Below, in pieces: positions 350 to 34,020 of a stretch of DNA of 38,140 nucleotides. A program made the position numbers and the translations under genes. Each line of letters begins with the position of its first letter. The stretch's first letter is position 1. The stretch comes from an uncultured Planctomycetaceae bacterium (GTDB lineage Bacteria; Planctomycetota; Planctomycetia; Pirellulales; UBA1268): contig CAJXFK010000012.1 of assembly GCA_913052575.1 (NCBI GenBank), positions 1-38,140 of the forward strand. The letters run 5' to 3'. The notes below the pieces were generated by a model. The model had not been told where the DNA came from, made no database searches, and saw only the letters and a program-made list of their open reading frames with translations.

Positions 350-3300
350 CTATTGGGCTGGTATAGGTATTACTAAAGGCATGCCGCCATCGGAGATGGT
401 GCTCGTGGCGCCGGCAATCAATCTCTGTTGATCTGTAAACTCAAGCCGAACGTTGTCAGATATCCGACCATTTGTTGCTTGAATAAGAAAGGTGTGCCGT
501 ATTCTGCAGATATCCGGCTCGACCATGTGGCTTGCTGATAGAGACGCGCCAGATACTACAGCTTTCAGGAGCGGCAAGTGTGACGACTGTTCAGCAGGAT
601 GTTCTTCAACAACACTCACTTCAATAATGTTTTTTGATTGTGGCTTTTTACGAGTAACTAATATCTTGGAACCCGGTAAACCAGGGAAGGAAAATTCCTT
701 CTCTACTTCTTCTGATAAGTCATTGACGAGTATTAGAAGGTCAGGATTCACCTGATCAAACCGAAACCACGCCTTGACGAGTGCTTTAGTTGCGAGGGGT
801 GGCCACTGCGGTGCGATAAGATCAAACACCGGTACAGATCGGTTTTTTTGAAGTGTCATATCGTAGAAGGTATACGGTATGCCGATTGGCTTATCTTGTT
901 TCAGTGGTTGGACTTCGACCCAGATGCTCGTTGGGCGTTGCGAATAGCTGTTTGCTTCATCGTTCTGTATCGATATTGGGATTCGCACGTCGTTCATGGT
1001 GCGAGATGCCAAGTGCACACCGAAGAAACTTTTTCTTCGAGAATCAATTGGATCAACAAGACCACTTTTACTATCACGAAGTCCTTGTTCAGTTCCGCCA
1101 TCATATCGCCGAAACTCAATGGATCGCCCGCCATTTGTGACATAAAGATCTAACGATGTATTGTTTTCAGCAGCGAAGCGTCGAGATGGAGGACGAGGCC
1201 CTGTTTCTAAGAATGCATCGTAATTGACAATACTTCGAGGTATCGAGCGAGGTAGTGTGCAAGTTTCCTCAAGGTGGAGAGTTTTGTTTACAGCATTCGG
1301 GCCCGAAACTCTCCACTGTAAAAGTCGAAATGAATCACGAAGAGATTTTAAGAGTGCTGCTGGGTCAGTAGCTTCGTAGAACTTTCCACCCGAATTATGA
1401 GCTACATCTCGCACTTCAGCCATGCGCATTGCTCGCTCCATTCCATTCGACTCTAAAGCGAACCCGATGATATCAATTCGAAGCGGTATCGAACGGCGTA
1501 AATTCTTCTGCGCTAATTGTCTTGTGACTCCAGGTGCTGTTGTAAACTGGCCTCCCGATTGATCATTCGCACCGTCTGTTACAACAAGAACATGTCCTGG
1601 TATGGCACTGTGTGAGCCGTCAAAATCTGTACCGATGGCCTCCGAAATTGCACGATACAGCGGCGTTTCACCGCCAGGAGAGATTGGTGACAAAATACTG
1701 TCTATTTCAAGTGCGACGCCTTGTGTGAGCGGTTGCATAGGTAACACTTGCTCAACATCATCTCCTGGAACCAGATTAAATGGTTGATCATTTTTCTTGG
1801 CAGTATCTTTTGCTTTTTGGCCAAGATCTGTCAGTGAGGAAGAGTAGTTTCCCTTTTCATCACGACTCCATTGTGTTCGGTGTCCATAGAGCCACAGTGA
1901 AACATCCCAGTCACCAGCTGAGACTAGATTATCGAGGACTTGTTGGACAGCCGCGCGACCAGCATCCAGTCGAGTTCGCCCGTCCATCATTCTGCGTCCC
2001 ATACTTCCTGAACAATCAAAAATAATTGCAACGGCTTGAGTCTGAGAAGCATCACCGTGGACGGTGATTTTACTCAGGTCACTAGACTGTGTATGCCACT
2101 GTGTCATTCGTGAGGCTGTTGCTGATACGACAGGAACCCCTTGGACCATTTTGTGGCCTCGATACCAGACTACAAAGTCAAGAGCAGGAACTTCATTTTC
2201 TTCAAGGCGGCGACTAATTGCAGCATCAATTTTCCAAGATTCAGGTTTTGTGTTGTCATATAAGCAAACCGGCAGTTGTGTGATAGGCTTCGAAGAAGAG
2301 TCTTTAATTAATGTCGGTAACGGCTCCGACTCCGCACCGGGTGCCAACCAAACTGTTGCCACTCCTCCGGGGATCCCCGGTGATGAGGGCTCAAGCTTTA
2401 TTGAAAGAGAGGCAGGGAGGTCAGAAGACAATGGCGCAAGCGTAATACGTCGTGGTGAGAGTTCGATTCTGGAAAATTCTTCAATTGAAACTTCTGCGTC
2501 ACTAAGACGTTCCTCGAATTCCTGTTCAAGAAGATCGTCACGTTTGGCACCGTATTTATCTGTTACAATTGTAGCTATGCTGAGTAGACGCCGTGACTTA
2601 ACGAGGCAAAATGGTTCGCTGCCCGGGGCAATGGCATTCCAGAAATCATCGAGTGTCAATTCCGATAAACGTATCAACCGTCGATAAGTAAGATTGGCAA
2701 AATACGTGATTTCAGGGTCATGCTCTTTTCCAGTTATAAATTTCAGCTGGTCGCATACGAGAAGTGCATGGCGACGATTGTCCACAGAGGCACCCTCTAG
2801 GATCGCCAGAAGAGTTTTGGAGTTGTCAGAATTTTGCTGTGCAGCTCGGTTAACCTGGGTTTTAATTTTGGAAAAATCTTCATCAAAATTGCGAGATACC
2901 TTCCTTAATACGGAGGATTGAAGTCCTACGTAGGCGGCAAATTCTTCTGTTGAAGATGGAAGCCTGTTTTGCTGTGGAACATCATCAAGAAATTGCGCGG
3001 TGACAGGGAATGAAAAAGAACCATCTACGCGTACACTTCCTTGCTCAAAATTAGATTCTGTGCTCTGTTTGATTGGTTTTGTTACGCGAGCAAAATTCTT
3101 TGCATATTCCTCAATAAGTTGTTGTTCAAGTTGATTGGATCTCATGAGCAATTGAATTCTGGTGCCAGCGGGAATGAGCGGGGTAAGCAAGGCCCGGCGT
3201 ATTGCGCCGAGAGTTTGAGGGCTGTCCGGCGCGGCTGCAGCGAGATTCCTGCAGTGATCGAGGTAGCTGTTGAGAAGCTTTTTAAAGTTTTTATCAGCAG

Positions 3301-5476
3301 CCTGCTGATACTTTTCAATAAAAGTAAATTGCTTCTGAGAATCCCGTTCGGCAGGGCTCGCCAGCATTGCGAGGCTTCGAAAGCTGCGGTAATACCGTCG
3401 GCATGAAGTAAGTAAGTCTTTTATAAAACTTGGCTGAAGTGTTGAGGGTTTTTGCTGGTCTGCTTGTATTTGTGCTTCCCGTGTCCACCAATCAAGAAGA
3501 TAAGGCAATTCTGAGTTGAGTTGATCAAGTGTTTTGAGGACCTGCCACCGCCGAGTAAGTTCACTTTTCAGTACTTTGAAATCATTGTGTACCTGTGCAG
3601 CGAGATCAACCGCGTCCCGCATGGAATCTGAGTCACCCACAAAGGTGAGGTCGATTGCTCTTCTGAGCATGTCCATAGCCTGTTTAAAATTTCGTTGATC
3701 TGCCGGTGAAGAGTGGAGCCGTCTAGATCGGCCAATTGCGATGTTCCGTGAATCTGCGACACACTGAATAAGTTTTGGAAAGAGTGAAGGGGAACGGCTC
3801 CAAGCGTCATTCTGACTCCATTCTAAGAGCATTCTGATGAAATGGAGTTGCGCAGAACTAAAAGAATCATTATCTGGAGAAGGCCCGACGTAATCGAGCC
3901 AACGCCGAAGGTAAGGGCGACTAATATCTTTCCCCGAATCCATTCGCAATAAAAGAAGTTGCCATGCCTGTTTTAAGCGATCCTGCCATACATTGATATC
4001 ACCTGTCGTGGTTGCGACAGATTGTTTTGAATCTTCAAGTAGCTTGTCAATTGCCTCTAGCTCTGCCCGCTGATCACTTTCTGGACTCTCAGTCAGTTGG
4101 GCCAATTCCTGGTCAAGCAGTACATACTCTAAAGAAGTGATGGGGCGTTGAAGCCTGCTTTCAAGTTGCTCAGCAAACGCATCGTTCACGCCTTGTATTT
4201 TCGATGTGGCAATGCCGTAGTGTCGTAGCCGCTCCGAACGAAGTAAAAGATTTTGATATGTGCCCCATAAGACAGGTCTTGTATTTTTTCGTAATTTACG
4301 GATTTCATCAACAGCGTTCCACCGTTGTGTCAACCAACTGATGTCAGGTATTGATAGAGATTTGATATTGAGTGTACCTCTTGGTCCTTTAGACCAACTC
4401 AACATCACGCTGTCTGACTTGATGGAAGTTTTGAGACCTGGAGAAGATGTACCAAGCAGTTTCGGTGTTTGACGTGACCCAAAGACTGTAGTTGCAAAGT
4501 GATCAACTTTATTTTGAAGGTATTGGCTGAGTTCAAGTAGGGAAACTTGTCCGTCACTATTTCCATATGGTTTTGCATCGGCAACTCCTTGAAGGCCTCT
4601 AGCGAAGTGCGTTGTGAACGAAGAACCACCAAGGTATTCGCTTGTCAATATTCTTTGACCGGCTGAATAAGGCAACATGACCCATAGTCGATCATGATTT
4701 CCTTGATCAACTATTGTCTCTACAGCTGCAGGAAATCCTGTTCCAGCGAGACCTGATGGCCATGACTGTTCATCTTTCCCGCAGTCTAAGACAGTCACTA
4801 CATTGATATTTGGTTGAACAGCAGCACGAATGCCAGCTAGAAGTCGTTCTACTGAAATGAAGTCGGCATCCGAAAGCGCCAGTGGTTGAGCACTTTTAAG
4901 TGGAGGCACGAGAAAAGGTTTACCGGTTTTATCAATGGCTGCAATGGCGGTTATGTAGACCAATACGGTGTTGCGATCCGGCCCACCAGGACGAGCTTCT
5001 TTGAGTGTTCGTGTGATGTAAGGCATGAAATCTGTGCCGGTCGTGAGTTCTCCAAATGCCGAGCTGATGTCACTAACAGTTGCAGCCATGGGCGCAAAAA
5101 ATCCATTTCCTGGAGAATTGAGGTCAAGAAGAAGTTTTTTGTCTTCTTCTACCAAAGGCAGTGGGCCAAAGGGGGCTTGATAGTTCGTTGCAAATGCGGT
5201 GACTATTGGAATAGGCCTGTGAAGTGTCAACAAAAGTTGCACAAGAAAGACAAGCACTCCGATCGTTGCAGAGGTAATGAATAAACGAGAAGTCCAGAGC
5301 AGAACCCGCTCAAGGATCGTTCGCTGGAAGTCAGAACTCCTCCATGATTTTGAAGGGCTCGAGTCGTTGTTGAGGAGGCTTTGTTCAGGTATATAATCTG
5401 CACCGTCAGACATTTTTGCCTGGCTTTTAGTTCGCCACGATTGCGGTTTCGAAGAGCTTTTTTTATCTGGACCCAT
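350..5476 (-). CDS. giant single-pass membrane protein with caspase-like and vWA domains (T6SS-linked)
   Basis: A 1708-aa protein. The N-terminus is basic and cytoplasmic (1-62), followed by one membrane helix (about 63-86), so about 1620 residues are predicted outside the inner membrane. Residues about 150-340 read like a caspase/C14 fold: strand VLVYITAIA where SGHG would be expected, then VVTVLDCGK, then SSFTTHFARGLQG, then an EF-hand-like DGQVSLLEL (309-317). The catalytic His-Gly is missing, so proteolysis is unlikely. A long helical region follows (about 380-1000). A vWA domain at about 1145-1350 has a complete MIDAS: DCSGS from D1154, T1271 and D1301. The C-terminal ~350 residues look beta-rich. 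It is the last gene of the - strand trio, 87 bp after the HEAT-like gene. It resembles the 1704-aa protein in architecture. Inferred role: a structural envelope component of the adjacent T6SS. No family with a proven function is recognised for the whole chain. Confidence 0.85.
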   Translation of the reverse strand: MGPDKKSSSKPQSWRTKSQAKMSDGADYIPEQSLLNNDSSPSKSWRSSDFQRTILERVLLWTSRLFITSATIGVLVFLVQLLLTLHRPIPIVTAFATNYQAPFGPLPLVEEDKKLLLDLNSPGNGFFAPMAATVSDISSAFGELTTGTDFMPYITRTLKEARPGGPDRNTVLVYITAIAAIDKTGKPFLVPPLKSAQPLALSDADFISVERLLAGIRAAVQPNINVVTVLDCGKDEQSWPSGLAGTGFPAAVETIVDQGNHDRLWVMLPYSAGQRILTSEYLGGSSFTTHFARGLQGVADAKPYGNSDGQVSLLELSQYLQNKVDHFATTVFGSRQTPKLLGTSSPGLKTSIKSDSVMLSWSKGPRGTLNIKSLSIPDISWLTQRWNAVDEIRKLRKNTRPVLWGTYQNLLLRSERLRHYGIATSKIQGVNDAFAEQLESRLQRPITSLEYVLLDQELAQLTESPESDQRAELEAIDKLLEDSKQSVATTTGDINVWQDRLKQAWQLLLLRMDSGKDISRPYLRRWLDYVGPSPDNDSFSSAQLHFIRMLLEWSQNDAWSRSPSLFPKLIQCVADSRNIAIGRSRRLHSSPADQRNFKQAMDMLRRAIDLTFVGDSDSMRDAVDLAAQVHNDFKVLKSELTRRWQVLKTLDQLNSELPYLLDWWTREAQIQADQQKPSTLQPSFIKDLLTSCRRYYRSFRSLAMLASPAERDSQKQFTFIEKYQQAADKNFKKLLNSYLDHCRNLAAAAPDSPQTLGAIRRALLTPLIPAGTRIQLLMRSNQLEQQLIEEYAKNFARVTKPIKQSTESNFEQGSVRVDGSFSFPVTAQFLDDVPQQNRLPSSTEEFAAYVGLQSSVLRKVSRNFDEDFSKIKTQVNRAAQQNSDNSKTLLAILEGASVDNRRHALLVCDQLKFITGKEHDPEITYFANLTYRRLIRLSELTLDDFWNAIAPGSEPFCLVKSRRLLSIATIVTDKYGAKRDDLLEQEFEERLSDAEVSIEEFSRIELSPRRITLAPLSSDLPASLSIKLEPSSPGIPGGVATVWLAPGAESEPLPTLIKDSSSKPITQLPVCLYDNTKPESWKIDAAISRRLEENEVPALDFVVWYRGHKMVQGVPVVSATASRMTQWHTQSSDLSKITVHGDASQTQAVAIIFDCSGSMGRRMMDGRTRLDAGRAAVQQVLDNLVSAGDWDVSLWLYGHRTQWSRDEKGNYSSSLTDLGQKAKDTAKKNDQPFNLVPGDDVEQVLPMQPLTQGVALEIDSILSPISPGGETPLYRAISEAIGTDFDGSHSAIPGHVLVVTDGANDQSGGQFTTAPGVTRQLAQKNLRRSIPLRIDIIGFALESNGMERAMRMAEVRDVAHNSGGKFYEATDPAALLKSLRDSFRLLQWRVSGPNAVNKTLHLEETCTLPRSIPRSIVNYDAFLETGPRPPSRRFAAENNTSLDLYVTNGGRSIEFRRYDGGTEQGLRDSKSGLVDPIDSRRKSFFGVHLASRTMNDVRIPISIQNDEANSYSQRPTSIWVEVQPLKQDKPIGIPYTFYDMTLQKNRSVPVFDLIAPQWPPLATKALVKAWFRFDQVNPDLLILVNDLSEEVEKEFSFPGLPGSKILVTRKKPQSKNIIEVSVVEEHPAEQSSHLPLLKAVVSGASLSASHMVEPDICRIRHTFLIQATNGRISDNVRLEFTDQQRLIAGATSTISDGGMPLVIPIPAQ

Positions 5477-5563: not shown

Positions 5564-7267
5564 TTATCTGTTTTGTAAGGCGTTGGGACGATTTTTTACA
5601 ATGAAAAAATCATGGACAAACTGTATCAAAACCGCGAGTGTTATCAGTGTTGCGGGAATACGTAGCCATGTGACTAGTCGAGGTGCTTGTAATGCAGCGG
5701 TATTCTGCTCGGTGTGCTTTTCGCTAGATTCAGACGATGGGTTTCTATGAGCAACGACTTTATTGTTTTGTCCTGGTACGACCATGGTTTTTGTTGATGG
5801 AATTCGAGGTGCGGCGATGGTGTGGTTAGATTTTGTAGCCGTAGCATTTGGAAGAGCAGGTCTCGGTAGTTTTGGTTGACTTTGAACAATTTTTGCTGCA
5901 GGTTTGGTGAGTGAGTGAGACGAAGGTAACCCAATGCCAGCCCATCTCGGATTGTTTTCTAGAAATGATCGTTGATGTTCGGTGCTTCTTGGTGGTAGCT
6001 GAATGTTGTGAATTGAGTTCTGTGTGCCAGCAGATGCATGTTGTTGCAGGGTCGAGTCATTGATATGAGTCTGGTTAGAAGATTTGTTCGTCCTGTTTAC
6101 CGGGCTTTCAGTAGATGCCTGTCTAGTATTTATCCATGGGTGAGGGATTATCTCAGCGTAGCGATCTTCTTGTTCAGTATTGTTGGAGGGGGTAGATCGT
6201 TTTGATCGGCGTAATAGAACACTTTTTATTGCCTGTCGGACTGGTTTTTCCGACACGGCTTGTGGCGATGGTGGTGGTAGTTGTTCTACAGGGAATTGAA
6301 GAGATTCTGGGATGGCCGCGGGAGTAGGCTGTTGATCAGAGTTGAAATCATCAGGAGGAATAGTAAAAAGTGGTCGGTCAATAAAACATGGTTCATTATC
6401 GTCGCTATATGGTAATTCGCGATCAGTTACGATGGGCAATTCTCGTACGACTTGTGAATTAAATCCACTAGCAAACTGTTGGCAGTCGCAAGCTTGGCAA
6501 GCCTGGAGTGCTAATTCTGCAACCGTCCGGACCCGTTCACTTGTTTCAAGAAAACATCCGTTTTCGTCACGTCCATGGGCTAGCTGTTCGAGTTTCTTTC
6601 TCATGTCTGGGCTGCAACACGGTCCGTGTCCATTTCCACAGGGACATTCTTCTTTTGAAGGATCTTTGCAAACTGGTTTGCCTGTGATATGGGACATGAC
6701 TTTCTCTTGACACTCTTTCATTTTCTTGACACAGACACGCTCTTTTGGTGGTGCTTTTCCAAAAATACGATCAATGAAGTCACAGAACTTCTTCTCGATA
6801 GTTTTTTTAAGATCATGACAAACTTGAATACATCCAAGTGCTTTTCGTGTTGACTTTTTTTGTTCTCTCGACTGACACCCACTAGCAGTTTTGAGTGCAG
6901 CTAGTACCGCAGCGTATCGTACGGGTTCATCAGGATCGCCCATTGCAGCAACGATTGCTGGGCCGACTTCTGGATGTTCAGGAGAGCAGCCCATATTGGC
7001 AAGGTACTCCAAGGCCTTTTTCTTTTTGCAGATTTTATGTTTGGCAGCTTTTGCTTTAGCGGCTGCTTTAATTGCAGGGTTTTGAGAGTATTGGTCAGCA
7101 CCGATGCCAAGAGAGCTCCAGATAGTTGTCGGTGCTTCTTGCGCGTGCGATGTCAGTGTTGTCGTGTTAATTAAAATCATGACAACGAAAAGTCTGCGAA
7201 GGCACTGGTGTACGACACAGCACGTCAATAACGGCATCCATGATTTTTCCGTGTTCATTCTGTGCAT
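5564..7267 (-). CDS. Cys-rich HEAT-like repeat protein with signal peptide and C-terminal membrane helix
   Basis: A 567-aa protein. A hydrophobic stretch at about 24-40 ending SHA-QE looks like a signal peptide. Residues 62-130 contain a HEAT-like repeat (helix pair with DPDEPVRYAAVLAALK), and 222-258 look like a second. Between them lies a Cys-rich segment (C146 to C261, including CPCGNGHGPCC). Residues about 280-520 are Pro/Ser/Thr/Asn-rich and probably disordered. A single membrane helix lies near 534-555 with a short basic tail, giving a probable type I topology with the HEAT/Cys part outside the cytoplasm. The start is uncertain: ATGs at 7267, 7258 and 7237 are in frame and none has a clear Shine-Dalgarno site. 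It sits between the two giant paralogues on the same strand, so it probably acts with them. I do not recognise a named family; disulfide bonding or metal binding is possible. Confidence 0.75.
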   Translation of the reverse strand: MHRMNTEKSWMPLLTCCVVHQCLRRLFVVMILINTTTLTSHAQEAPTTIWSSLGIGADQYSQNPAIKAAAKAKAAKHKICKKKKALEYLANMGCSPEHPEVGPAIVAAMGDPDEPVRYAAVLAALKTASGCQSREQKKSTRKALGCIQVCHDLKKTIEKKFCDFIDRIFGKAPPKERVCVKKMKECQEKVMSHITGKPVCKDPSKEECPCGNGHGPCCSPDMRKKLEQLAHGRDENGCFLETSERVRTVAELALQACQACDCQQFASGFNSQVVRELPIVTDRELPYSDDNEPCFIDRPLFTIPPDDFNSDQQPTPAAIPESLQFPVEQLPPPSPQAVSEKPVRQAIKSVLLRRSKRSTPSNNTEQEDRYAEIIPHPWINTRQASTESPVNRTNKSSNQTHINDSTLQQHASAGTQNSIHNIQLPPRSTEHQRSFLENNPRWAGIGLPSSHSLTKPAAKIVQSQPKLPRPALPNATATKSNHTIAAPRIPSTKTMVVPGQNNKVVAHRNPSSESSEKHTEQNTAALQAPRLVTWLRIPATLITLAVLIQFVHDFFIVKNRPNALQNR

Positions 7268-7496: not shown

Positions 7497-10400
7497 TTAT
7501 TGCATCTTAAGAGCAATCGTTGCTGGTGGGGCAGGGGATGCAGGCAGTGTAATTTTCATTAAATCTGACCGTCTTGTTGTGTTTCGAATAGCACCCTGCG
7601 CAGAGACGGAGTATTCGCCTGGCTCTAAGTTAGTAAACTGGAATTCACCTTTCTTTCCAGTCTTGACGGTTCGTTCTCCTGCAGGCCCTGTAAGGCTGAC
7701 AGAGACATCTGGTTCACCCTTCCCGTCAAGGGTGACACGACCAATAATATCGTTATTCGGACTGGCTGGTTTTGCGGCAATGTCAAGCCAGACACGATTT
7801 GGTGGGCTGCTCAATCCAACTTTATCAACAGCGCGTATGAGTAGTGGAAGTCGAACACCTGGTGATAATTTTTCCGTTTTAAGATTAATTTCATATCGAA
7901 CGTCACCAAGCCAAACCGCGGGCTCCCATTTTTCTGGTTTCCCAAGCCCTTTTATATCTACGGCCCATTCAACATTTGCAAGTCCAGAAACTCCTGGTCG
8001 AACACGATCTGGTGCGATAAAAAATCCATCTGATACATCATCAGCTACTCGTATTGGAATCTTAAGTTCTCTACCTACGATTACTGACGCTGATGGTGGT
8101 GAATCAATCTGGGGGGCTGTTCCGTCAAAGACAATTGTCCTGCTGTCAGTTGCACTTGTCTGTCTACCAGCGAATGAAACTCGTGCGATAGCAGTGACAT
8201 CAACATTGGAAAAGCCCTTTCCACTCGCCTCTACTTTCCAGTCAGAGACTTCAGTGGTGACTGAAAGTTGTTTCAGTTTTTTAGGCATCTTGAAAGTTAT
8301 TTGTCGGTCATTTCTTCCAGACCATGCAATCTGTTCACCAGCTCGGCTAGCAGACCCAACACTGATTGGACGAAAGACAATATCAATGGAACCGCTGTCA
8401 CCACGTGCGGTTTGAAAGGTGTCAGCAGGGGCATCGACTTCGAGGGAGAAGGGAATGACGGCAGTTGGTGAACGGACAAGTGTGCGCAGTGTTTCTGGTT
8501 GTTTTATACGAATGCTTCTCCAGTCATACTGGGGGTATTGAGCAACCTTGTCAGTTGTAGGCGAACATTCTAAGGAATAAATGAGAGCGCGAGGATAATC
8601 ATTGATATCAAGAGCAAAGTAAGCCTGTCCACGATCTGGACCAGTCCATGTTGCTATAGCAAAATCTGATAACGTCGACTTTTGAATGCGTATGTCGGGT
8701 TTTCTAGAGACAACAGAAGGCATAGTTTTAATTTGAGACTGATTGCGGCTCGGTGCAAGTAGTGGTTTGAGCGATGCGACAAGGCCTGCCGGTGGAAAGG
8801 CTTCAACTGCAGGAGAAAGTGGACGCAAAAGGACCCGTATTTCACGACGGCTGGCGTCATAGACGGCATTTGAATCAACGAAATGTCTAGGGTGAATTGG
8901 CGTTAGATGTATTCGAAAAACTATTTTGTTCGTTGTTCCAATCTGCGTGTAATCTTCTACAACGACCGCAAGTTCACTTCCCACTTGAATGTCTTTTTTT
9001 TGTTTTTCCGGCGCATCTGGTGAGGGGAGTGCTCCTTTTGTTTCAGGTTCCGAAATATCTTTTTCCGGTTCGTTCTGTTTCTCACCACTCTCATTTTCCT
9101 GGTCGCTTTTCTCTGCAGGAGGAGCAAGCTTAACCCTCGTTACCCCGGTGTCTGATTGAAGGGTTATATTCTTGGCGACTAGTATTGGCTTTAGTGATTT
9201 TTCTTTTTGATTAATTGCTGCGGCAAGTGCTTGAAAGGTTTCCAAGGCGGTTGTTTTAATGAGATCATTTTGTGCCGAAAATACCTGCACTGTAACCTGC
9301 TTTTTGATGTCAGAGAGATTTTCAATTCCTAATTCCCACTCTGTGGTGCCAGATGGCCATGGACGTAGGGTAAGTGTTGGCGCGGTTGATGCACGGCCAA
9401 TTCCAGTGGAATCAATGGGTTTGTTTGCTTTGTATGCAATATGAGTCCATCCGTTTGAATCTTTTGGACCGACAACGGTAAGAGGATGACCACGTGCGGC
9501 AAGGACAATGTCACGACTGTTGAGTAACGGTAAAACAATTTCTGCACACGTATTCTTGGTGCCTGCATGTAGGGTCATTTGAATTTTTGCAGACTGATCT
9601 TTCGTGAATAGGGTTGAGGTTGCAAGACGCTTTACCTCGAAGCGTGCTTGATTGCCCCTCCAACCAAGTTCTGATGCTGAGAATTTTATATTTCGGCCTA
9701 TTAGATCACCACTTAATCGAGACAGTTGAAATACAGCGGGATCGAATGAAAAAGAGACTTGGTCCTCGAATATCTCTTTGCTTGGGCCCTCGTAGGTAGC
9801 ATTGATGCCGATGCGGTCTTCATCAAATGTATTGTTTGCGATTTCAAGAGTGAGCGGTAACCTTTCGGGCAAATGGAGGTTCGGAGGTGGAAGGATTACT
9901 TCGCTATTAGCAGCAAAGGCATCCCGCCAGTCCAGTGAACGTAAAGCACCAGCCAGACAGTCGTTCTTAATCCGGTCTTGGGGATCACTAAACTCACGAG
10001 ACGTTGAAAGGGACTTAAGTTTTTGGAAAATCTTGGCAGTTACCCTGCCCAGTCCAAGTACTTTGTCAATTAGCTTATCGTTATCTTGTAAAGTCGAGAT
10101 CTTAGAAAGATCTTCGAGGTTGGTTTGTGCCTCTTGTATGTCCTCGCCGAGCTGCAAGATCATTTCGGGAGCATTGTCTTTTGCACTGAAGCCTAGTGCT
10201 ACCGAAAAGAAATCGAGTTGTAGGTTTACTAATCGCCTTATCTGCAAAAGGTCTGATTCTGTAAGCAAGCGTTTTGTTCTTATGGCTGCGTGCGACGCGG
10301 GAGTGAGTGCATTGGTAGTAAGTGCAGGTTTTTTTCTGGTCCCTAATAAGTACTGTTTTTTTAGGCGACTTCTAGTCGACTGGGTGATCGCAGGTGAGCC

Positions 10401-12611
10401 AAGGATTCTAGTTAGTTCGTGATATGCCGTTGTTGGTTCGTCTGGAGTACCACCCAATAACGTCGTGGTTGTTGTATCAATAAACTCCCTCAGTGATCCA
10501 TTTTTATGTAATAACAGTTGCGTTTGTGAATCAAGTAGGTTCATTAGCCGCCGGTCGTTCGTTTGTTGGTTGCTGTAGGTGTTTATTAAGTGAGTTGCGG
10601 CTGTGACTTCATCAAGGCAATTTCGAATTACTTGCTCGTCTACGGTCGAGGGCAGGTTGCCTCCTGAGAGTCGACCATTGAGCTCTATCGCATCATTCGT
10701 AGAAAAGATTGCATCATTTCTCGCTTGGAGAAGCTGGCCTACTTTTTCAGGAAGATTGAGCCAGGGTTCTTGCACTTGAGAAGCCGTTCCCGATTCAATT
10801 GCTTCATCAATTATGGCCGCGGTAGAAGACTGCGATGACATGTCATTGCCCAAACTTTTTTTTGCGTCAATCTCTTGAAGCGATCTTGTAAGAGACTTCA
10901 GGAATGATCTTGCTTCATCACTTCTCTTGCCACCTTCTAGTTCGGTAAGTTCAGCGAGCGCAATGTAATGACTTGCTCCGTTGAGTACGTGAGGCGCGTA
11001 GTCTTTTAAACCAATCTTGAGTGTGCTGTTGCGTTGGGGGCGTCGGCCTATATTTTCGAGTAGTTGCCAAATATCAACAACAGTGTTGACTCGAGGCTTC
11101 TTGGATTTCGGGTCACTACTCTTTGGGCTATCTGTCGAGTCCTTTTTTGTCGAACTCTTTTTATTCGATTTTTGTGGGCTTTCCGGTTGCACACCACCTT
11201 CCTGAGGTGTGTTGTCTTGAAGAGGAGATTCTTCTACCTGGCTCTTGTCATCTTGAGATGAGCTCGCACTATTGTTCTGCTGAGAATCTGATTTTTTATT
11301 CTTTGGTTGGGTCGTGTTCACCTGACTTTTTTCAGGCAACGGCTTGTCGAGTTCATCTTTTGCTTCAGAGTCAGGAGATGCTGTCGGGGTGTTGGCTGTT
11401 GCAGTGGCCTTAGCTGCCGGCTCTGAATTTTCGTTAGTCAGAGGTTGTTGCTTCTGGGTTAATTTTGTTTGATCCGAAGAGCCCCCTGAGAACCATTTTG
11501 ATAGCCATGTACTACCAGTATCAAACGTTCGTGTAGGCGCACGAATGAGACGAATATTCGGAGGGATTTCATCAATCGGGATCCTGCCAGACCCAATTTT
11601 CCAGATCACCGGATGTTGGCTGTGTCGACCACCGGTGGTTGCGCGCGACCATGCATATGTGACTATATGTACAAATCTAGCGAGTTCATCGAGTTCGATG
11701 ATTCCGTCTGCGTCTCCCCACGGGCTTTTATCTGCTTCGCCAAGTAGGGCGAGTTCAAAGGCTTTGCTAAATAGACTCCGGTTGTCGCTCAGGCTTACAT
11801 GAGAGAACTCCAAAGAATCGTTGGATGTAATAAGCCAACTGTCACCGACAGCGAGGTGTTTTTTTCCATTGCTTAACGCAGCAAGTTCTGTATCTAATTT
11901 ACTGGGTACAAAATTACCAAGTGTTCCGAGCCTAGGGTCCCAAGAAATATTGCCCAGATCCATAGCGATGAGCGTTGTGTTGTTGCTGCCGGCTCCAAGC
12001 GAGTCGAGAACATGACTGCAGCGGACCAAGCCACTTGGCGAACCACCTTCTAAAGAAAAGTCGGCGGCGGCAAGTTGGCAATGGTTTCTAGTTGGGGAAC
12101 CTTCTTCGGCAGTTGAGGAAATAAAAGACTGAGCCCTCACGTACGCCAGAAGGACATCTTTTTGCCGAAGTTTGAAGTCCTGGATTTTGCCAACGAGTTG
12201 ATCTCGTATGGCATCTGATGTTTCGTAATTTGATAGTCGAACAACACCACGCCCTGTAGCCGGGCTGCAACGTCCGCTGAGCACTTTTTGGATACCAGAG
12301 ATATCTAGATCTCGATATGCAATTGGTTGTAATCCAGCTTGATAGTTGTCAATCGCAAGAGTGACGCATGTCGTTTGCCAGGTCGTGAGCGGAGCAATAC
12401 TGATGAACGCAATTGTGATAATAGCAACGAGTGTCGCTGTCGTGAACATAATGCGGCGGGCCCAGGGGTCACCGCCTACTTTTTCTTTTGACCGATTCGT
12501 ACCTCTCCAGTTTTTTGCATCAAACTTATTTGAATCTGACGGCATTGTCTCAGAGCCAATGTTTACATTCGTCTCTGGGAGTGTTGATTTAGATTCAGGG
12601 GTGTCACTCAT
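7497..12611 (-). CDS. giant single-pass membrane protein with degenerate caspase-like domain and C-terminal carboxypeptidase-regulatory-like domain
   Basis: A 1704-aa protein. A polar N-terminus (1-51) is followed by one membrane helix (about 53-76). Residues about 80-345 parallel the 1708-aa protein: VTLAIDNYQAG (83-93), strand DVLLAYVRAQS (152-162), LIAMDLGN (214-221) and EF-hand-like DADGIIELDEL (300-310). Both catalytic positions of a C14 peptidase are absent. A disordered linker rich in Ser, Lys, Gln, Pro and acidic residues spans 376-508. A helical region follows (about 510-900), then beta/Ig-like segments with a second charged linker near 1180, an Ig-like domain around 1520-1620, and a carboxypeptidase-regulatory-like fold at about 1625-1690 (GEFQFTNLEPGEYSVSAQG). 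It is the first gene of the - strand set and diverges from tssK across 192 bp. Probable role: a long periplasmic scaffold of the T6SS envelope complex. That role is inferred from context and topology, not from a known homologue. Confidence 0.85.
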   Translation of the reverse strand: MSDTPESKSTLPETNVNIGSETMPSDSNKFDAKNWRGTNRSKEKVGGDPWARRIMFTTATLVAIITIAFISIAPLTTWQTTCVTLAIDNYQAGLQPIAYRDLDISGIQKVLSGRCSPATGRGVVRLSNYETSDAIRDQLVGKIQDFKLRQKDVLLAYVRAQSFISSTAEEGSPTRNHCQLAAADFSLEGGSPSGLVRCSHVLDSLGAGSNNTTLIAMDLGNISWDPRLGTLGNFVPSKLDTELAALSNGKKHLAVGDSWLITSNDSLEFSHVSLSDNRSLFSKAFELALLGEADKSPWGDADGIIELDELARFVHIVTYAWSRATTGGRHSQHPVIWKIGSGRIPIDEIPPNIRLIRAPTRTFDTGSTWLSKWFSGGSSDQTKLTQKQQPLTNENSEPAAKATATANTPTASPDSEAKDELDKPLPEKSQVNTTQPKNKKSDSQQNNSASSSQDDKSQVEESPLQDNTPQEGGVQPESPQKSNKKSSTKKDSTDSPKSSDPKSKKPRVNTVVDIWQLLENIGRRPQRNSTLKIGLKDYAPHVLNGASHYIALAELTELEGGKRSDEARSFLKSLTRSLQEIDAKKSLGNDMSSQSSTAAIIDEAIESGTASQVQEPWLNLPEKVGQLLQARNDAIFSTNDAIELNGRLSGGNLPSTVDEQVIRNCLDEVTAATHLINTYSNQQTNDRRLMNLLDSQTQLLLHKNGSLREFIDTTTTTLLGGTPDEPTTAYHELTRILGSPAITQSTRSRLKKQYLLGTRKKPALTTNALTPASHAAIRTKRLLTESDLLQIRRLVNLQLDFFSVALGFSAKDNAPEMILQLGEDIQEAQTNLEDLSKISTLQDNDKLIDKVLGLGRVTAKIFQKLKSLSTSREFSDPQDRIKNDCLAGALRSLDWRDAFAANSEVILPPPNLHLPERLPLTLEIANNTFDEDRIGINATYEGPSKEIFEDQVSFSFDPAVFQLSRLSGDLIGRNIKFSASELGWRGNQARFEVKRLATSTLFTKDQSAKIQMTLHAGTKNTCAEIVLPLLNSRDIVLAARGHPLTVVGPKDSNGWTHIAYKANKPIDSTGIGRASTAPTLTLRPWPSGTTEWELGIENLSDIKKQVTVQVFSAQNDLIKTTALETFQALAAAINQKEKSLKPILVAKNITLQSDTGVTRVKLAPPAEKSDQENESGEKQNEPEKDISEPETKGALPSPDAPEKQKKDIQVGSELAVVVEDYTQIGTTNKIVFRIHLTPIHPRHFVDSNAVYDASRREIRVLLRPLSPAVEAFPPAGLVASLKPLLAPSRNQSQIKTMPSVVSRKPDIRIQKSTLSDFAIATWTGPDRGQAYFALDINDYPRALIYSLECSPTTDKVAQYPQYDWRSIRIKQPETLRTLVRSPTAVIPFSLEVDAPADTFQTARGDSGSIDIVFRPISVGSASRAGEQIAWSGRNDRQITFKMPKKLKQLSVTTEVSDWKVEASGKGFSNVDVTAIARVSFAGRQTSATDSRTIVFDGTAPQIDSPPSASVIVGRELKIPIRVADDVSDGFFIAPDRVRPGVSGLANVEWAVDIKGLGKPEKWEPAVWLGDVRYEINLKTEKLSPGVRLPLLIRAVDKVGLSSPPNRVWLDIAAKPASPNNDIIGRVTLDGKGEPDVSVSLTGPAGERTVKTGKKGEFQFTNLEPGEYSVSAQGAIRNTTRRSDLMKITLPASPAPPATIALKMQ

Positions 12612-12803: not shown

Positions 12804-14273
12804 ATGCGTCATTTGCAGGTCCATTGGTCTGAAGGAATGTTTCTGCGTCCGCAACATTTTCAGGCGGCTGATCGTCACCGAGAGGAACAGCAATCATTAT
12901 CAGTTTCTGTGAATGATCCCTGTTGTTATGGCTTCTCAATTTTAGAGATAGATCAAAGAGCGCTTGCGAATAGGCAACTAGAAATACGCAGTTGTCAGGC
13001 TCGCTTTAGAGACGGCACGCTTCTTTCTTTCGAGCAGGGAGAAGAGCCAGACCGGATCAGTCTTGAGCCGGCAGCAAAACAGGTAGAGGCTCTTTCTGCA
13101 TCGCTCTCAAATATCCAAGAAACAACCGACGATATTCGAGTATATCTTGGTATCCCAAGATATGGACCATTTACCTCGAATGCCTCGGCTTTTGCCGAGA
13201 CTGAAAAATGCCGAAGCAAGATCGTACGGCAGGAAGTGGCTGATGATACCTCTGGTACAAATGAACAGGAGGTAGAGTTCAGACAGTCGAACGTACGGGT
13301 CCTTCTTTCAACGGACGACCTTTCTGGTTATGAACTCCTGCCGTTAGCTCAAATACGTGGACTTGCAAGCCGGGAGACTGCTCCTGAGATTGATGCTAGT
13401 TTTTTTCCGCCTGTTCTTGCTGTATCTGCGTGGGCTCCTCTTTGCCATGACATAATTCGCAGCACGTACGACATGATCGGTAAAAAAGTCGAGGTACTTG
13501 CGGAGCAAGCGACAACCCGGCAAGTAGGCTTTTCAAGTTCTGAGCCAGGCGATCTTGATCGACTTTTCATGTTATCGAAACTTCTTGAAAGCCAGGGATC
13601 TCTGAAGGTTTTAGCGTTTGCCCCGGGTATTCATCCAAGAGAAGCTTACACTGAGCTTTGCCGCCTTGCTGGTTCACTCTCGGTATTCGAGCCAGATCGG
13701 CGTCTCGCTGAGATCATGCCCTATGACCATGATAATTTGGCAACAATTTTTCATTCAATCATGAAACAAATTGAGAGAATGCTGTCTCGCGTAACGAATC
13801 TTGAGTTTGATCAGCGCTACTTTGTTGGTGCTGGCCATGCAACACTTGCGGCAACTCTTGATGCGAAATGGCTTCAATCAGACTGGGAATGCTATGTTGG
13901 TGTTTTAAAGGGTGATATGACTGAAGAGACGTGTCACCGTCTTTTGACGGGAGATAGTCACTTGGACTGGAAGCTCGGAAGCGCTGAGGATGTTGATCGT
14001 ATATTTCGTCTGGGTTTGCCTGGGCTAGAGCTGCGTACAGCAGAGCAGATTCCACGGCCTCTTCCAACGCGTGGTGGTTGGCTTTATTTTCGTATCAACA
14101 CGAATTCGCCCGCTTGGCAATCAATACAAGTGAATCAGGCGATGGGCATTCGGCTGAGAGACACACTCATAACAAACCCAGAGCAATTACCTGGTGATCG
14201 CCGCGTGGAAGTTGTCTTCGAAGGTCGCAAAAGTGCAATTGAGTTTGCTATCTTTGCTGTCCCGACCCTTTGA
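12804..14273 (+). CDS. tssK: T6SS baseplate subunit TssK
   Basis: A 489-aa protein with the TssK/ImpJ/VasE N-terminal signature HWSEGMFLRPQHFQ at about residues 8-21. TssK forms trimers that link the TssEFG wedge of the baseplate to the cytoplasmic domains of TssL and TssM. The protein is somewhat longer than the usual ~445 residues, with an acidic insertion near residues 135-160. The ATG at 12804 is followed directly by the conserved N-terminus, so the start is firm even though the Shine-Dalgarno sequence is weak. It is the first gene of the + strand operon and is followed 23 bp later by tssL. The conserved TssK-TssL order supports the assignment. Confidence 0.96.
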   Translation: MRHLQVHWSEGMFLRPQHFQAADRHREEQQSLSVSVNDPCCYGFSILEIDQRALANRQLEIRSCQARFRDGTLLSFEQGEEPDRISLEPAAKQVEALSASLSNIQETTDDIRVYLGIPRYGPFTSNASAFAETEKCRSKIVRQEVADDTSGTNEQEVEFRQSNVRVLLSTDDLSGYELLPLAQIRGLASRETAPEIDASFFPPVLAVSAWAPLCHDIIRSTYDMIGKKVEVLAEQATTRQVGFSSSEPGDLDRLFMLSKLLESQGSLKVLAFAPGIHPREAYTELCRLAGSLSVFEPDRRLAEIMPYDHDNLATIFHSIMKQIERMLSRVTNLEFDQRYFVGAGHATLAATLDAKWLQSDWECYVGVLKGDMTEETCHRLLTGDSHLDWKLGSAEDVDRIFRLGLPGLELRTAEQIPRPLPTRGGWLYFRINTNSPAWQSIQVNQAMGIRLRDTLITNPEQLPGDRRVEVVFEGRKSAIEFAIFAVPTL

Positions 14274-14296
14274 TTAAATGAAACTAGCGAGTCGGT

Positions 14297-14914
14297 ATGA
14301 CACAAGATTTTCAATCTGCAGCAATTCCTGTAATTCTCGCCATAATCGGTCTGGCGAAACGTGCGGCGAGTGGGGAAGCTGGACCTGTTGAAGCTGAAAG
14401 AGCTGCTCTGCGTGTTTCTTTCGAAAAGGCTGCGGCCATCTGCCGAGGCCCCGCAGCAGAAGATTGGCGGCTCGCAAGTTATGCTTTGGCATCAGCAGTC
14501 GACGAACTTCTCATTGTCGACATTACTTGGTCAGGACAGGCTTGGTGGGAAAATCATGCCATGGAGGTAGAGCTGTTCGGTACGCGAAAAAGGGCGACCG
14601 AATTTTTCACTCTTTCAGAAAAGGCTGCATCTTTGCCAAGAGGGAATGCATTGCAGGTCTTTGTCGCTGCTGTAGTTATGGGTTTCCAGGGGACACACAG
14701 GGAACGTCCGGATGCTTTAGAGGCATGGCTTAGAACGCATAAACAGGGCATAAAACTATCGCTAGATCGTCCGGTAACACCTTCATCAGGACCAGAGGTA
14801 GCAGGCGGTGGTCCGCTCACCGGACGTATTCTTCTCTTGTGGAGTTTATTTTCGTCTCTTCTGCTTGGGGCGTTCTTTATTGTCACGGCTTGGTCCGTCT
14901 TTTATTTGCTGTAA
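14297..14914 (+). CDS. tssL: T6SS inner-membrane protein TssL (DotU/IcmH family)
   Basis: A 205-aa protein. The cytoplasmic helical domain has the DotU hallmark around residues 60-110 (ALASAVDELL, then a Trp-rich stretch, then a VELFGT-type motif). A single C-terminal membrane helix (about 178-202) ends the chain, as in tail-anchored TssL. There is no OmpA-like peptidoglycan-binding extension, so this is the short form and cannot anchor the complex to the wall itself. TssL normally pairs with TssM and docks TssK. It lies between tssK and the TssM-like gene. Confidence 0.93.
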   Translation: MTQDFQSAAIPVILAIIGLAKRAASGEAGPVEAERAALRVSFEKAAAICRGPAAEDWRLASYALASAVDELLIVDITWSGQAWWENHAMEVELFGTRKRATEFFTLSEKAASLPRGNALQVFVAAVVMGFQGTHRERPDALEAWLRTHKQGIKLSLDRPVTPSSGPEVAGGGPLTGRILLLWSLFSSLLLGAFFIVTAWSVFYLL

Positions 14915-14958: not shown

Positions 14959-16356
14959 ATGGATACGCTACTGAGTTTCCTGCTTTCGCCCTTGCGTCTC
15001 ATCTTTGGCCCCATCCAATGGTTTCGGCAAGCATCTTTGGCGGCCCGGCTGGCGTTTCTGTTTGGTGTCTTTCAAATTGTTATTGTTTTGCTTGCCACAA
15101 GTGCTGTGCTTTTTGCTGGCGAATGGGTTGTGCTTCAGTTGTGGTGGAGTCCGGGCAAAATATTTCTTTTGCTTCTGTTATTTATTAGCGTGCCAATACT
15201 GGTCTATCGTTCTGCCTTGCTTTGGTGTGAGATCCCCACAGCAAGATGGCCAGATGTCACGAGTGCTTGGAATACAATCATTCAAGATTTGAAAAGACAA
15301 GATGTCGATCTTGAAGAGTGGCCAGTCTATTTAGTTCTAGGCTCAGATGGTAATGGGCTTGAGTCAGCACTCTTTCACTATGCAGCGACACCGTTGCTTT
15401 TGTCAGGAAGTCCTGGTGCAGGCGCACCTTTACATGCATATGCAACAAAAGAAGCAGTGTATATTACCCTAAACAGTATTGGTCACACTGCTGCTGCAGC
15501 AAAAGCGTGTCGGAATCAAAAAAGCGATTCCGATCACCAGTATGGTAGGAAGGAAGAGGCATCTCGTTTAGATGCATTGTGCAGCCTTCTAGTCATGGAA
15601 CGGGCACCCTTCGTACCGATCAATGGAATTTTATCACTTGTGCAGGTTGATTATGCACATCTGGTAAGTCAACCACTTACGAAATTAGCCATCGCTCAGG
15701 CACAAGATTTTCAGCGTATAACACATCGTTTAGGCGTTCGAGCCCCGGTCACGTTTTTAGCCGTAGGCCTTGAGAATGAGGCTGGCTTTGCTGATTACGC
15801 CGAATTGCTATCAGCAGAGCAGCAACCAAAAGTGAATGCTGACCAGACGGTTAGTAAGCCAACTGGTCGTGAAGAGGCGAAAGGTGTTCGTTTTCCAGTC
15901 GGTATTCGACCAACGAATGATCAACTTACTGCGGTAGCAGCCAACGCGATGGGACCATTGACTGACAATATTGCGGAGATGGTGCTGGATCCTGCAAGAC
16001 TGCCAGAACAACAGCGTCGCATTCGTTTGCTTGAACTGCTCTGTCGTATTCGTTTACACGGAGCGTCTCAGTTGAATGAGGTGCTCCAGCAAGTTTTTTC
16101 AAATAATCTAACTACTGCGGATTTACCATTGCTAAGCGGAGCGTTTGCTGGAGCCCTCGGCCCTGAACCGGAGAAGCAAGGTTTTTTAGCTGGTGTCTTA
16201 TCACATTTGAATGATCAGCAAGCGGAACTTGACTGGACAAGAAAGAGCCTCAGAAGTGACGAACGGGCTCGTCGTGCAGCAAGAATTCTATTCGGGCTGA
16301 CAATGGCCTTATTGCTTCTTTCTTCCGGCATGCTTTGGTGGAAGTTGGTGGCGTGA
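14959..16356 (+). CDS. tssM: TssM-like protein reduced to its N-terminal cytoplasmic half
   Basis: A 465-aa protein. Two membrane helices (about 31-54 and 67-88) are followed by a cytoplasmic domain and a third helix (about 441-463) at the very C-terminus. This is the order of the first ~450 residues of TssM/IcmF, whose usual length is about 1100-1200. The entire periplasmic domain that contacts TssJ and forms the channel is absent. The P-loop site reads GSDGNGLES (128-136) where GxxGxGKT/S is expected: the Lys is lost, so NTP binding is improbable. The stop is not followed by a readable continuation, because the next gene, a sigma factor, overlaps it as GTGA, so this looks like a genuine short form and not a recent frameshift. 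Gene position after tssL agrees with TssM. The periplasmic function may be supplied by the divergent giant proteins. Confidence 0.85.
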   Translation: MDTLLSFLLSPLRLIFGPIQWFRQASLAARLAFLFGVFQIVIVLLATSAVLFAGEWVVLQLWWSPGKIFLLLLLFISVPILVYRSALLWCEIPTARWPDVTSAWNTIIQDLKRQDVDLEEWPVYLVLGSDGNGLESALFHYAATPLLLSGSPGAGAPLHAYATKEAVYITLNSIGHTAAAAKACRNQKSDSDHQYGRKEEASRLDALCSLLVMERAPFVPINGILSLVQVDYAHLVSQPLTKLAIAQAQDFQRITHRLGVRAPVTFLAVGLENEAGFADYAELLSAEQQPKVNADQTVSKPTGREEAKGVRFPVGIRPTNDQLTAVAANAMGPLTDNIAEMVLDPARLPEQQRRIRLLELLCRIRLHGASQLNEVLQQVFSNNLTTADLPLLSGAFAGALGPEPEKQGFLAGVLSHLNDQQAELDWTRKSLRSDERARRAARILFGLTMALLLLSSGMLWWKLVA

Positions 16357-17018
16357 GCAAGTTTCCAAAGAAGCATGAGCGAGTGTTTCTTTTGCATCAG
16401 GGTCTGGTTCGTGCTCTTGCGTGGCGATTGCATCGCCGAACCGGAAGATACGTTGAAATTGATGATCTTATTGCATACGGTCAGATTGGTTTACTTGAGG
16501 CAATTCGGTGTTTTGATGAAGAACGTGGCATTAAGTTTTCGACGTATGCATGGTATCGAGTGCGAGGTGCAATTTTCGATGGCCTTATGAAGATGTCATG
16601 GTTTAATCGAATTGCATTTGAGCAGGGCGAATACGAATTCGAAATAAAGGAAAAATCATCGAAGCCAAAAAAGACGCTTCAGTCAGAGAAAAAAGAAAGT
16701 CAAGATCGGTCAAGTATTCGTCGTCAGCAACAGCCGTCTTTGTCTGGTGGTTTTGATGGTAACGTGCCGGGCGATCTTAAAGGAGTTGATTCGGTAGTTG
16801 TTCACAGAGAGTTGCTGGCGTTTCTTAGAGATCTTGTGTCAAATCTTCCGGAAAAAGAAGCGCAACTCATCAAAGAAAAGTTTTTTGTGGGAAGAACTCT
16901 CACAGAGGCTGCCCGCCGTGTTGGCATTAGTGTTGCTTGGGCAAGTCGTCTTAATGCACGAACACTTGCAGATTTGCGAATCGTATTGGAGCAGTCTGGC
17001 TTTGCTGCAGGCGACTAA
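16353..17018 (+). CDS. FliA-like alternative sigma factor embedded in the T6SS operon
   Basis: A 221-aa protein from a GTG start that overlaps the TssM stop (GTGA, 16353-16356), with a GGAAG Shine-Dalgarno eight bases upstream. TTG at 16335 and GTG at 16338 are alternative starts. Residues about 10-75 match sigma-70 region 2 of the FliA/SigB/SigF type (VEIDDLIAYGQIGLLEAI, FSTYAWYRVRGAIFDGL). Residues about 160-215 form region 4 with a helix-turn-helix (TLTEAARRVGISVAWASRLN). Region 3 is not recognisable; instead there is a Lys/Ser/Gln-rich linker (about 90-130). Being cotranscribed with tssKLM and upstream of tssA, it may direct transcription of the sheath/tube genes. No anti-sigma factor gene is visible in the window. 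Confidence 0.88.
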   Translation: MSKFPKKHERVFLLHQGLVRALAWRLHRRTGRYVEIDDLIAYGQIGLLEAIRCFDEERGIKFSTYAWYRVRGAIFDGLMKMSWFNRIAFEQGEYEFEIKEKSSKPKKTLQSEKKESQDRSSIRRQQQPSLSGGFDGNVPGDLKGVDSVVVHRELLAFLRDLVSNLPEKEAQLIKEKFFVGRTLTEAARRVGISVAWASRLNARTLADLRIVLEQSGFAAGD

Positions 17019-19117: not shown

Positions 19118-19174
19118 ATAGTTTAAGTCAAGCGAATGTGAAAATTTTTGAATGAGTCTCAAAGGAAAAATACA

Positions 19175-20671
19175 ATGAGCACAGGCGAATCACAGCAACA
19201 AGAGAGCGTTGCAGCAGAACAGTCATCTGCCGGGCTGCTTGACCAGATAACGACCATGATGCCTCGGGCGGTAGAAAAGCCTCGACGTAATGAACTCATT
19301 CGTTCTCTCGTTGAGGAGTCTTTGAAGGGTACTGTAAAGTTCGACAAAAATGTTGGAAAGACAATCACGAATGCAATGACCGCGATTGACGCCGCAATGT
19401 CGACGCAATTAGCAGCAATTATGCACAACGATGCCTTTCAAAAGCTTGAAGGTTCTTGGCGTGGTCTTCATCACCTTGTTATGAACTCAGAAACAGGGGC
19501 ATCACTGAAAATACGGGTCATGAATATTGGGAAGCGAGAGCTTTTCAAAGATCTTGATAAAGCTGTTGAGTTTGACCAAAGCCAAACATTTAAAAAGATT
19601 TATGAGGCAGAATTTGGTTCTCCTGGTGGTGAGCCATACGGAGCACTTATCGGTGATTATGAATTCACGAATCACCCTGAAGACATTGACACGCTTTCGA
19701 AAATGTCACAGGTTGCGGCAGCTGGATTTGCACCATTTCTTTCTGCAGCAGATCCGAAACTCATGGGGATGGACAGTTACTCAGAATTGTCGAAGCCACG
19801 TGATCTTGAAAAAATCTTTCTTGATGAGAGCTATGCGAAGTGGAGGAGTTTTCGTGATTCTGATGACTCTCGGTTTGCAGTTTTGACAATGCCGAGATCT
19901 CTTTCACGACTGCCATATGGGAAGAATACGAAGGTAGTCGAAGAGTTTGACTATGAAGAGGTTGAGCTTGACGAAAAAGGTAACTCAAAGCCAGTTGAGC
20001 ACGGTAACTACTCATGGATGAATAGTTCGTATGTTCTTGGTGCCCAGATGACCTCTGCGTATTCAAAATTCGGTTGGTGCACGGCAATTCGTGGAGCGGA
20101 AAATGGCGGTAAGGTTGAAGGTCTACCTGCTCATATCTTCACAGCCGATGATGGTGATCAGGCCATGAAGTGTCCTACAGAGATTGCTATTACAGATCGC
20201 CGTGAAGCTGAATTGTCCAAGCTCGGTTTCCTTCCGCTTTGTCACTACAAAAATACGGACTATGCCGTTTTCTTTGGCGCGCAGACGACGCAAAAGGCGA
20301 AAAAGTACGACAAGCCTGAGGCAACAGCGAATGCCGCAATTTCTGCTCGACTGCCGTACATTATGGCTACATCTCGTATTGCTCATTTCTTGAAAGTAAT
20401 TGCAAGAGATAAGATCGGATCATTTATGGAACGACAGGACTGTGAGGACTGGCTAAAGCGGTGGATAGCGAACTATGTGTCCACTGATCCGCACCCGAGT
20501 GATGATGTGAAGGCGAGATATCCTCTCGCGGAAGCAGAGATAAAGGTTGAGGATATTCCGGGTTCGCCAGGAAGCTATAACGCTGTGGCTCATTTGCGTC
20601 CGTGGTTGCAGTTAGAGGAATTAACATCAAGTCTGCGACTAGTCGCTAAGATTCCGGCTAAGAGTGGTTGA
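19175..20671 (+). CDS. tssC: T6SS contractile sheath large subunit TssC (VipB)
   Basis: A 498-aa protein with the canonical TssC landmarks: a charged N-terminal helix region, [15 protein letters not shown] (about 87-101), [29 protein letters not shown] and the C-terminal [16 protein letters not shown]. TssC forms the main body of the sheath and its N-terminal helix is the ClpV target. The ATG at 19175 has an AAAGGAAA site; an upstream in-frame TTG at 19148 lacks one. Length is normal for the family. A second, diverged tssC follows 87 bp downstream. Confidence 0.97.
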
Positions 20672-33414: not shown

Positions 33415-34020
33415 ATGCAGATAGTAACACTCGATCAGTTTCCAACGAAAGAAGCATCGCGCAGTCGACTCGCAAAGCTAGCACTCGAAGACGAGGCTCT
33501 TTCTTTCTTGAAGACAGCGGAAGATGAACTGCCAGGTGGTTCTGTTGTTGAAACTGCTCGGATGATGACCGAATCGGGACTGCTAAATGATGCTTGTAGT
33601 GTTCTTGCACAGGCCCTTACTCGTCGAGGGGCTGTTTGGTGGGCATGTTGTGCTGCAAGAGGAGAATCTGGTGGTGGTCCGACTGATCACGAAATGCCGG
33701 CTCTTGTCTGTGCGGAAGCATGGGTGACTGCGCCGGAGCAAAAAAAGGCCTACGCTGCAGAAGCGTCATCCACCGAAATTGGTTTGGCATGTCCAGCGGG
33801 TTGCGCTGCCTTAGCCGCTTTTTTAGCTGGAGAATCAATCGCACCGCCGCACCTTGATCCATTGCCACCAGAGCCACATTTTGCGGGGCTTGCAGTGACT
33901 GGTGCTATTCGTTTGGCTGCCGAAAGAAGAGAGCCAGCAGAATCATCCGCCCATCTCAAAAAATTACTTGAGTTAGGTTTTTCGATTGCGTCGGGTGAAA
34001 ATATCTGGAAAGAAACTTAA
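33415..34020 (+). CDS. small conserved-looking protein of unknown function next to vgrG
   Basis: A 201-aa protein with no signal peptide or clear membrane helix. It looks mainly helical, with an Ala-rich central region, a WWACCAARGES segment (about 76-86), a Pro-rich stretch (about 141-153: APPHLDPLPPEPH) and a C-terminal helix. ATG at 33415 has a GGTGGAG site, and the gene lies 29 bp after vgrG as the last of the + strand block. It may be related to the DUF6931-type small proteins reported near T6SS genes, but I cannot confirm this. By position, an adaptor or chaperone that loads the VgrG/PAAR tip or cargo is the simplest guess; an effector is also possible. Confidence 0.75.
   Translation: MQIVTLDQFPTKEASRSRLAKLALEDEALSFLKTAEDELPGGSVVETARMMTESGLLNDACSVLAQALTRRGAVWWACCAARGESGGGPTDHEMPALVCAEAWVTAPEQKKAYAAEASSTEIGLACPAGCAALAAFLAGESIAPPHLDPLPPEPHFAGLAVTGAIRLAAERREPAESSAHLKKLLELGFSIASGENIWKET

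Follow-up and report, generated by a model that had tools for sequence, protein, structure and literature searches.

Periplasmic vWA domains at T6SSs are not new in themselves, because TssR and PpkA precede the case described here. In the T6SS-iii of Bacteroidota, the five-protein complex TssNQOPR includes TssR, whose D2 domain is a periplasmic vWA domain and which is needed for T6SS-dependent competition (PMC10781749). In the H1-T6SS of Pseudomonas aeruginosa, the Ser/Thr kinase PpkA carries an extracytoplasmic vWA domain with a proposed sensor role (PMC3224232). The membrane complex of the canonical T6SS-i is formed by TssJ, TssL, and TssM; in Acinetobacter, the complex has lost TssJ and has added lineage-specific envelope proteins (PMC10564176). 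For T6SSs that have neither TssJ nor a periplasmic TssM part, we found accounts of how the envelope is crossed only from Bacteroidota and Acinetobacter.

The window analyzed here, meaning the whole stretch of 38,140 nucleotides from an uncultured Planctomycetaceae bacterium, encodes a full T6SS. TssK, TssL, TssA, TssB, TssC, ImpE/TagJ, VgrG, and PAAR were identified with family models, and TssE, TssF, TssG, ClpV, and Hcp were recognized by sequence reading. The genes for TssK, TssL, and TssM diverge from a trio encoding two giant proteins, A and B, and a HEAT-like protein, as follows.

350..5476, minus strand: protein A (1708 aa), a giant of one predicted membrane span (N-in) that combines pseudocaspase, helical, Ig-like, vWA, and C-terminal beta domains
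5564..7267, minus strand: HEAT-like protein, third member of the trio, with a signal-like N-terminal segment, a C-terminal helix, and invariant cysteines
7497..12611, minus strand: sister protein B (1704 aa), with a TM segment and caspase-like N terminus as in A and no vWA domain
12804..14914, plus strand: TssK and TssL (DotU), identified with family models
14959..16356, plus strand: short TssM (465 aa), matched only by IcmF-related_N and stopping at its third TM helix

The run of T6SS genes also holds a sigma-70 family factor with regions 2 and 4 (16335-17018, plus strand), which overlaps the end of tssM; such a factor lies within the T6SS run of two other loci as well (L120 and L035), and an apparent sigma-TssM fusion in L035 proved to be an off-frame extension. 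Further along are tandem TssC-like genes (19148-20671 and 20759-22426, plus strand), the second resembling a divergent copy, and, directly after VgrG, a gene for a DUF6931 protein (33415-34020, plus strand) that is possibly a VgrG/effector adaptor.

The shortening of TssM is not a peculiarity of this genome. Among 197 genomes of the same order, 57 carry TssK, and none of these 57 gave a match to IcmF_C, the periplasmic part of TssM, in a search whose E. coli control rang; the single genome of the order with IcmF_C lacks TssK. TssJ was found in 0 of the 197 genomes, its E. coli control likewise ringing. Across the class, TssM homologues stop just after the third TM helix and the class sample contained no IcmF_C, which is often present in more distant T6SS-bearing members of the phylum. 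Protein A, on the other hand, was found by sequence in 51 of the 57 TssK-positive genomes of the order and by profile in 5 more (56/57). The six genomes that at first appeared to be without A thus comprise five with a divergent A and one (G121, L120) that is cut by a contig edge beside tssK. Only 1 of the 140 TssK-negative genomes, a fragmented MAG, carries A, giving a Fisher P of about 4e-47 that is overstated, because related genomes are non-independent and the negatives were mostly searched by the less sensitive single sequence. In the class sample, A occurs in 10/10 TssK-positive versus 0/15 TssK-negative genomes. HEAT-like genes were recovered by profile in 23/25 T6SS genomes, and A-HEAT-B is a conserved trio that tracks the T6SS. 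Gene order points the same way: in other families of the class, tssM lies between the two giants (B-TssM-A in L110, L111, L113, and L115) or directly beside A (A-TssM-TssL-TssK in L112), a direct physical linkage to the gene for the shortened TssM. Co-occurrence with TssK and synteny together bear out the T6SS association that an earlier note on this DNA had proposed for A. No A was found in plasmid and viral collections.

Protein A is divided as follows.

5201..5257, minus strand: predicted TM helix, residues 74-92, from hydropathy and flanking charges, the N side being more positive
4127..5305, minus strand: caspase-like fold, residues 58-450, from AlphaFold and Foldseek, common to sister B
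2039..2476, minus strand: beta (Ig-like) domain before the vWA domain, residues ~1001-1146, from the secondary structure of the AlphaFold model
1277..2038, minus strand: vWA domain, residues ~1147-1400, from Pfam, profile, AlphaFold, and Foldseek
359..1276, minus strand: C-terminal beta-rich, family-specific domains, residues 1401-1706, from the AlphaFold model
2003..2017, minus strand: MIDAS motif 1, DCSGS (D1154, S1156, S1158), from the codon check and the orthologue alignment
1664..1666, minus strand: MIDAS T1271, within GETPLY; every orthologue has T or S here
1574..1576, minus strand: MIDAS D1301, within TDG, D being invariant

The N-terminal part of A is shared with B (TM and N-terminal domain, E=2e-24). 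Its caspase-like domain was modeled by AlphaFold with a pLDDT of 89.8 and matched CED-3 and caspases in Foldseek (E=3e-7); inspection of the aligned positions showed that A of the window has neither the catalytic His nor the catalytic Cys of an active caspase. In some orthologues (L062), both residues are retained at these positions, and an EF-hand-like DG..[IV]xLxEL loop occurs in the caspase-like domains of both giants. No vWA domain was found in B, and the presence at each locus of one giant with this domain and one without is consistent with a paired arrangement, of which it is not proof.

The earlier note had claimed a vWA domain in A with a complete MIDAS, and both parts of the claim hold. 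D1154, S1156, S1158, T1271, and D1301 make up the full set (DxSxS/T/D), matching the ORF exactly, with codons at 2015-2017 for D1154, 2009-2011 for S1156, and 2003-2005 for S1158; the span then given, 1430-2050, corresponds to residues 1143-1349, and the vWA fold extends to about residue 1400. Pfam VWA matched A of the window with E=5e-4, slightly short of the curated cut-off, and VWA_2 was matched in 34/37 orthologues with a best E of 8e-12. Solved structures matched by the family profile include the vWA domains of BatB, LapA, and pilus proteins; printed alignments spanning motif 1 have DxSxS aligned, and in two Bat proteins the TDG as well. The AlphaFold model of residues 940-1708 gives the vWA fold with confidence (pLDDT 88.5), whereas its pTM of 0.63 leaves the relative placement of the domains uncertain. 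In this model D1154 ends the first strand, T1271 immediately precedes a helix, and D1301 directly follows the strand after that, as expected of MIDAS loops. Foldseek matched the modeled domain to vWA proteins down to E=3e-12, including LapA (TM-score 0.71) and NorD (9qh8), the nearest structures being the MIDAS-bearing pilus-tip adhesins PitA, PilB, SpaC, and RrgA.

Conservation singles out the same site. Orthologues of A were gathered from the 197 genomes of the order and from class and phylum searches, and the MIDAS set is intact in 39/39 aligned orthologues (allowing S/T at positions 3 and 4) and in every orthologue added later. None of the 52 distinct orthologues, a count that omits a contig whose A is 97% identical, has lost the site, so the outcome that would have refuted the earlier note's claim, loss of MIDAS residues in most homologues, is not seen. 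Over the full length of A the median pairwise identity is 21%, and only 9 of 1708 columns are invariant: D609, R1106, D1154, S1156, M1159, P1272, T1300, D1301, and G1302. Seven of these nine are at the MIDAS, three as ligands and four as adjacent residues, and finding 3 of the 5 MIDAS positions among 9 invariant columns of 1708 has a hypergeometric P of 1e-6. An apparent loss in L058/L059 came from taking the wrong paralogues, the sisters, and the adjoining true A genes keep the site. Profile hits from outside the class (L102-L108) were left uncounted; they are other giants of 1500-2000 aa from more distant genomes, with a C-terminal intact-MIDAS vWA domain and no T6SS neighbours, and form a separate group. 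Two orthologues come from unexpected sources: the 97% identical A is on a contig titled Rickettsiales bacterium (L101, PALK01000028.1), probably a mislabelled MAG, and L109 (G490), a full-length orthologue of A from a genome that is assigned outside the class and in which TssK was not detected, may reflect transfer or contamination.

Strict conservation could mean that the cation simply steadies the fold, with its open coordination site unused by any partner. A MIDAS is often kept in vWA domains, the T6SS-free giants L102-L108 among them, fold requirements can account for such conservation, and conservation is by itself no proof of docking. The MIDAS columns are, however, among the most conserved of A. 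Streptococcus sanguinis PilB binds Mg or Mn through the same residue set, and its Asp319-to-Ala variant loses the metal with the structure unchanged at 0.45 A rmsd (PMC8179133), so that the fold does not in general require a MIDAS metal. These PilB data count in favor of a role in binding; a purely structural role we regard as improbable for A.

Where such binding would take place depends on topology. In most of the 39 aligned orthologues, hydropathy shows a sole strong hydrophobic segment near the N terminus, preceded by 3 to 13 Lys/Arg and followed by a less positive stretch. By the positive-inside rule this charge pattern implies an N-in, C-out orientation, and the MIDAS is therefore predicted, from sequence, to lie outside the inner membrane. 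The periplasmic location that had been deduced from the single N-terminal helix thereby gains support as a prediction, the charge pattern being family-wide. Seven cysteines are invariant in the HEAT protein family, as are the acidic residues D111, E114, and E241; these cysteines, together with the signal-like N terminus, agree with an oxidizing compartment. If A were instead unexported, its vWA domain might act on the cytoplasmic side in the manner of the CoxE/NorD-type partners of MoxR ATPases. The NorD domain is indeed among the fold matches, but the conserved TM segment with its preceding positive charge, the signal-like N terminus and invariant cysteines of the HEAT protein, and the failure to recognize any MoxR-type ATPase in the window make this very unlikely.

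An extracytoplasmic vWA domain might also be exposed at the surface, constantly or on firing, and grip prey or matrix. This reading draws on the pilus adhesins that are the nearest solved structures and on the transient vWA/PKD exposure raised speculatively by the authors of the TssR study (PMC10781749). In A, however, an inner-membrane anchor is predicted, and we recognized no outer-membrane anchor or surface-sorting signal. Its MIDAS is also far more conserved than a ligand-variable adhesin would lead one to expect, and we see little chance that A is an adhesin. A PpkA-like sensor, in which the MIDAS would bind an external or periplasmic ligand and gate the assembly or firing of the T6SS, agrees with A in location and type of domain (PMC3224232). 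On the other side, A has no kinase domain (no match in Pfam or NCBIfam), no more than about 70 of its residues are predicted to be cytoplasmic, and almost all T6SS genomes of the order contain it, as befits a core part and not an optional regulator; we therefore consider the sensor unlikely. The trio as a whole could also be regulatory rather than structural.

Taken together, our results make it reasonably likely that A is a scaffold component in the periplasmic section of a variant membrane complex of the T6SS, with its MIDAS serving as a docking joint. The absence of TssJ and of a periplasmic TssM domain makes a scaffold role of A plausible, and because the T6SSs of this group are without both, the A-HEAT-B trio is the leading candidate to form the periplasmic half of the complex. 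In the proposed arrangement, one helix would anchor A in the inner membrane and leave about 1600 residues outside, and A-HEAT-B would occupy the periplasmic space of the missing TssJ and of the part of TssM that would follow its third membrane helix. We infer that the MIDAS carries a divalent cation, probably Mg2+ or Mn2+, whose open coordination position would hold on to an acidic side chain from a partner within this envelope complex. That partner would most likely be B, the HEAT protein, TssM/TssL, or a neighbouring copy of A. Candidate residues for the ligand are the invariant D111, E114, and E241 of the HEAT protein, D294, D302, E309, D1496, and D1524 of B, and D609 of A. The earlier note had named the first two proteins as possible docking partners, and its interpretation is supported in part: in the complete and conserved MIDAS, the predicted extracytoplasmic location, and the T6SS association. 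The HEAT protein had at one stage been excluded as the ligand because no HEAT gene was seen between A and B in L058-L062 and L110-L115, but the profile finds HEAT in most of these and it stays a candidate.

We came across no description of a periplasmic vWA protein combined with a truncated TssM and a lack of TssJ in the searched open literature, in which no title or abstract among open papers on T6SS in Planctomycetes/Planctomycetota dealt with this system (subscription papers and preprints were outside the search). One alternative set of proteins seems common to a whole bacterial class, with a single metal site as its most conserved feature. More tentatively, at somewhat less than an even chance, the locus may represent a new type of complex, in which TssL and a membrane/cytoplasmic TssM are retained, the envelope section is rebuilt from two pseudocaspase giants and a HEAT protein, and a metal-dependent vWA clamp forms the joint, reached independently of TssR.

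Comparison of A with the known systems shows both likenesses and differences. Like the pilus-tip adhesins S. sanguinis PilB, RrgA, SpaC, and PitA, it combines a vWA domain of the same metal-ligand pattern with flanking domains, but those proteins are surface pilins or sortase-anchored and not parts of a secretion machine. In PpkA, too, a vWA domain outside the cytoplasm goes with a T6SS, as predicted for A, although PpkA is a kinase. From the canonical T6SS-i, TssL/DotU and the IcmF-related N-terminal part of TssM are present here too, whereas IcmF_C and TssJ are in no T6SS-positive genome of the order. The Acinetobacter complex is a parallel in the loss of TssJ and the addition of envelope proteins, but its TssM gained a new oligomerization domain where the TssM described here lost its periplasmic part (PMC10564176). 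TssR offers the likeness of a periplasmic vWA domain, predicted in the case of A, at a T6SS without TssJ and canonical TssM. Sequence tests nevertheless set A apart from the TssR family: the TssR model gave no Pfam match in A or 37 orthologues, and Pfam TssR (PF17643) gave none in this genome, control genomes being silent too. No lipobox was seen in A of the window, where about 70 hydrophilic residues are followed by the TM helix. TssR is a lipoprotein of ~790 aa from a system that is also without TssL/TssM, whereas A is a single-span protein of 1708 aa with pseudocaspase and beta domains, encoded beside TssL and a short TssM.
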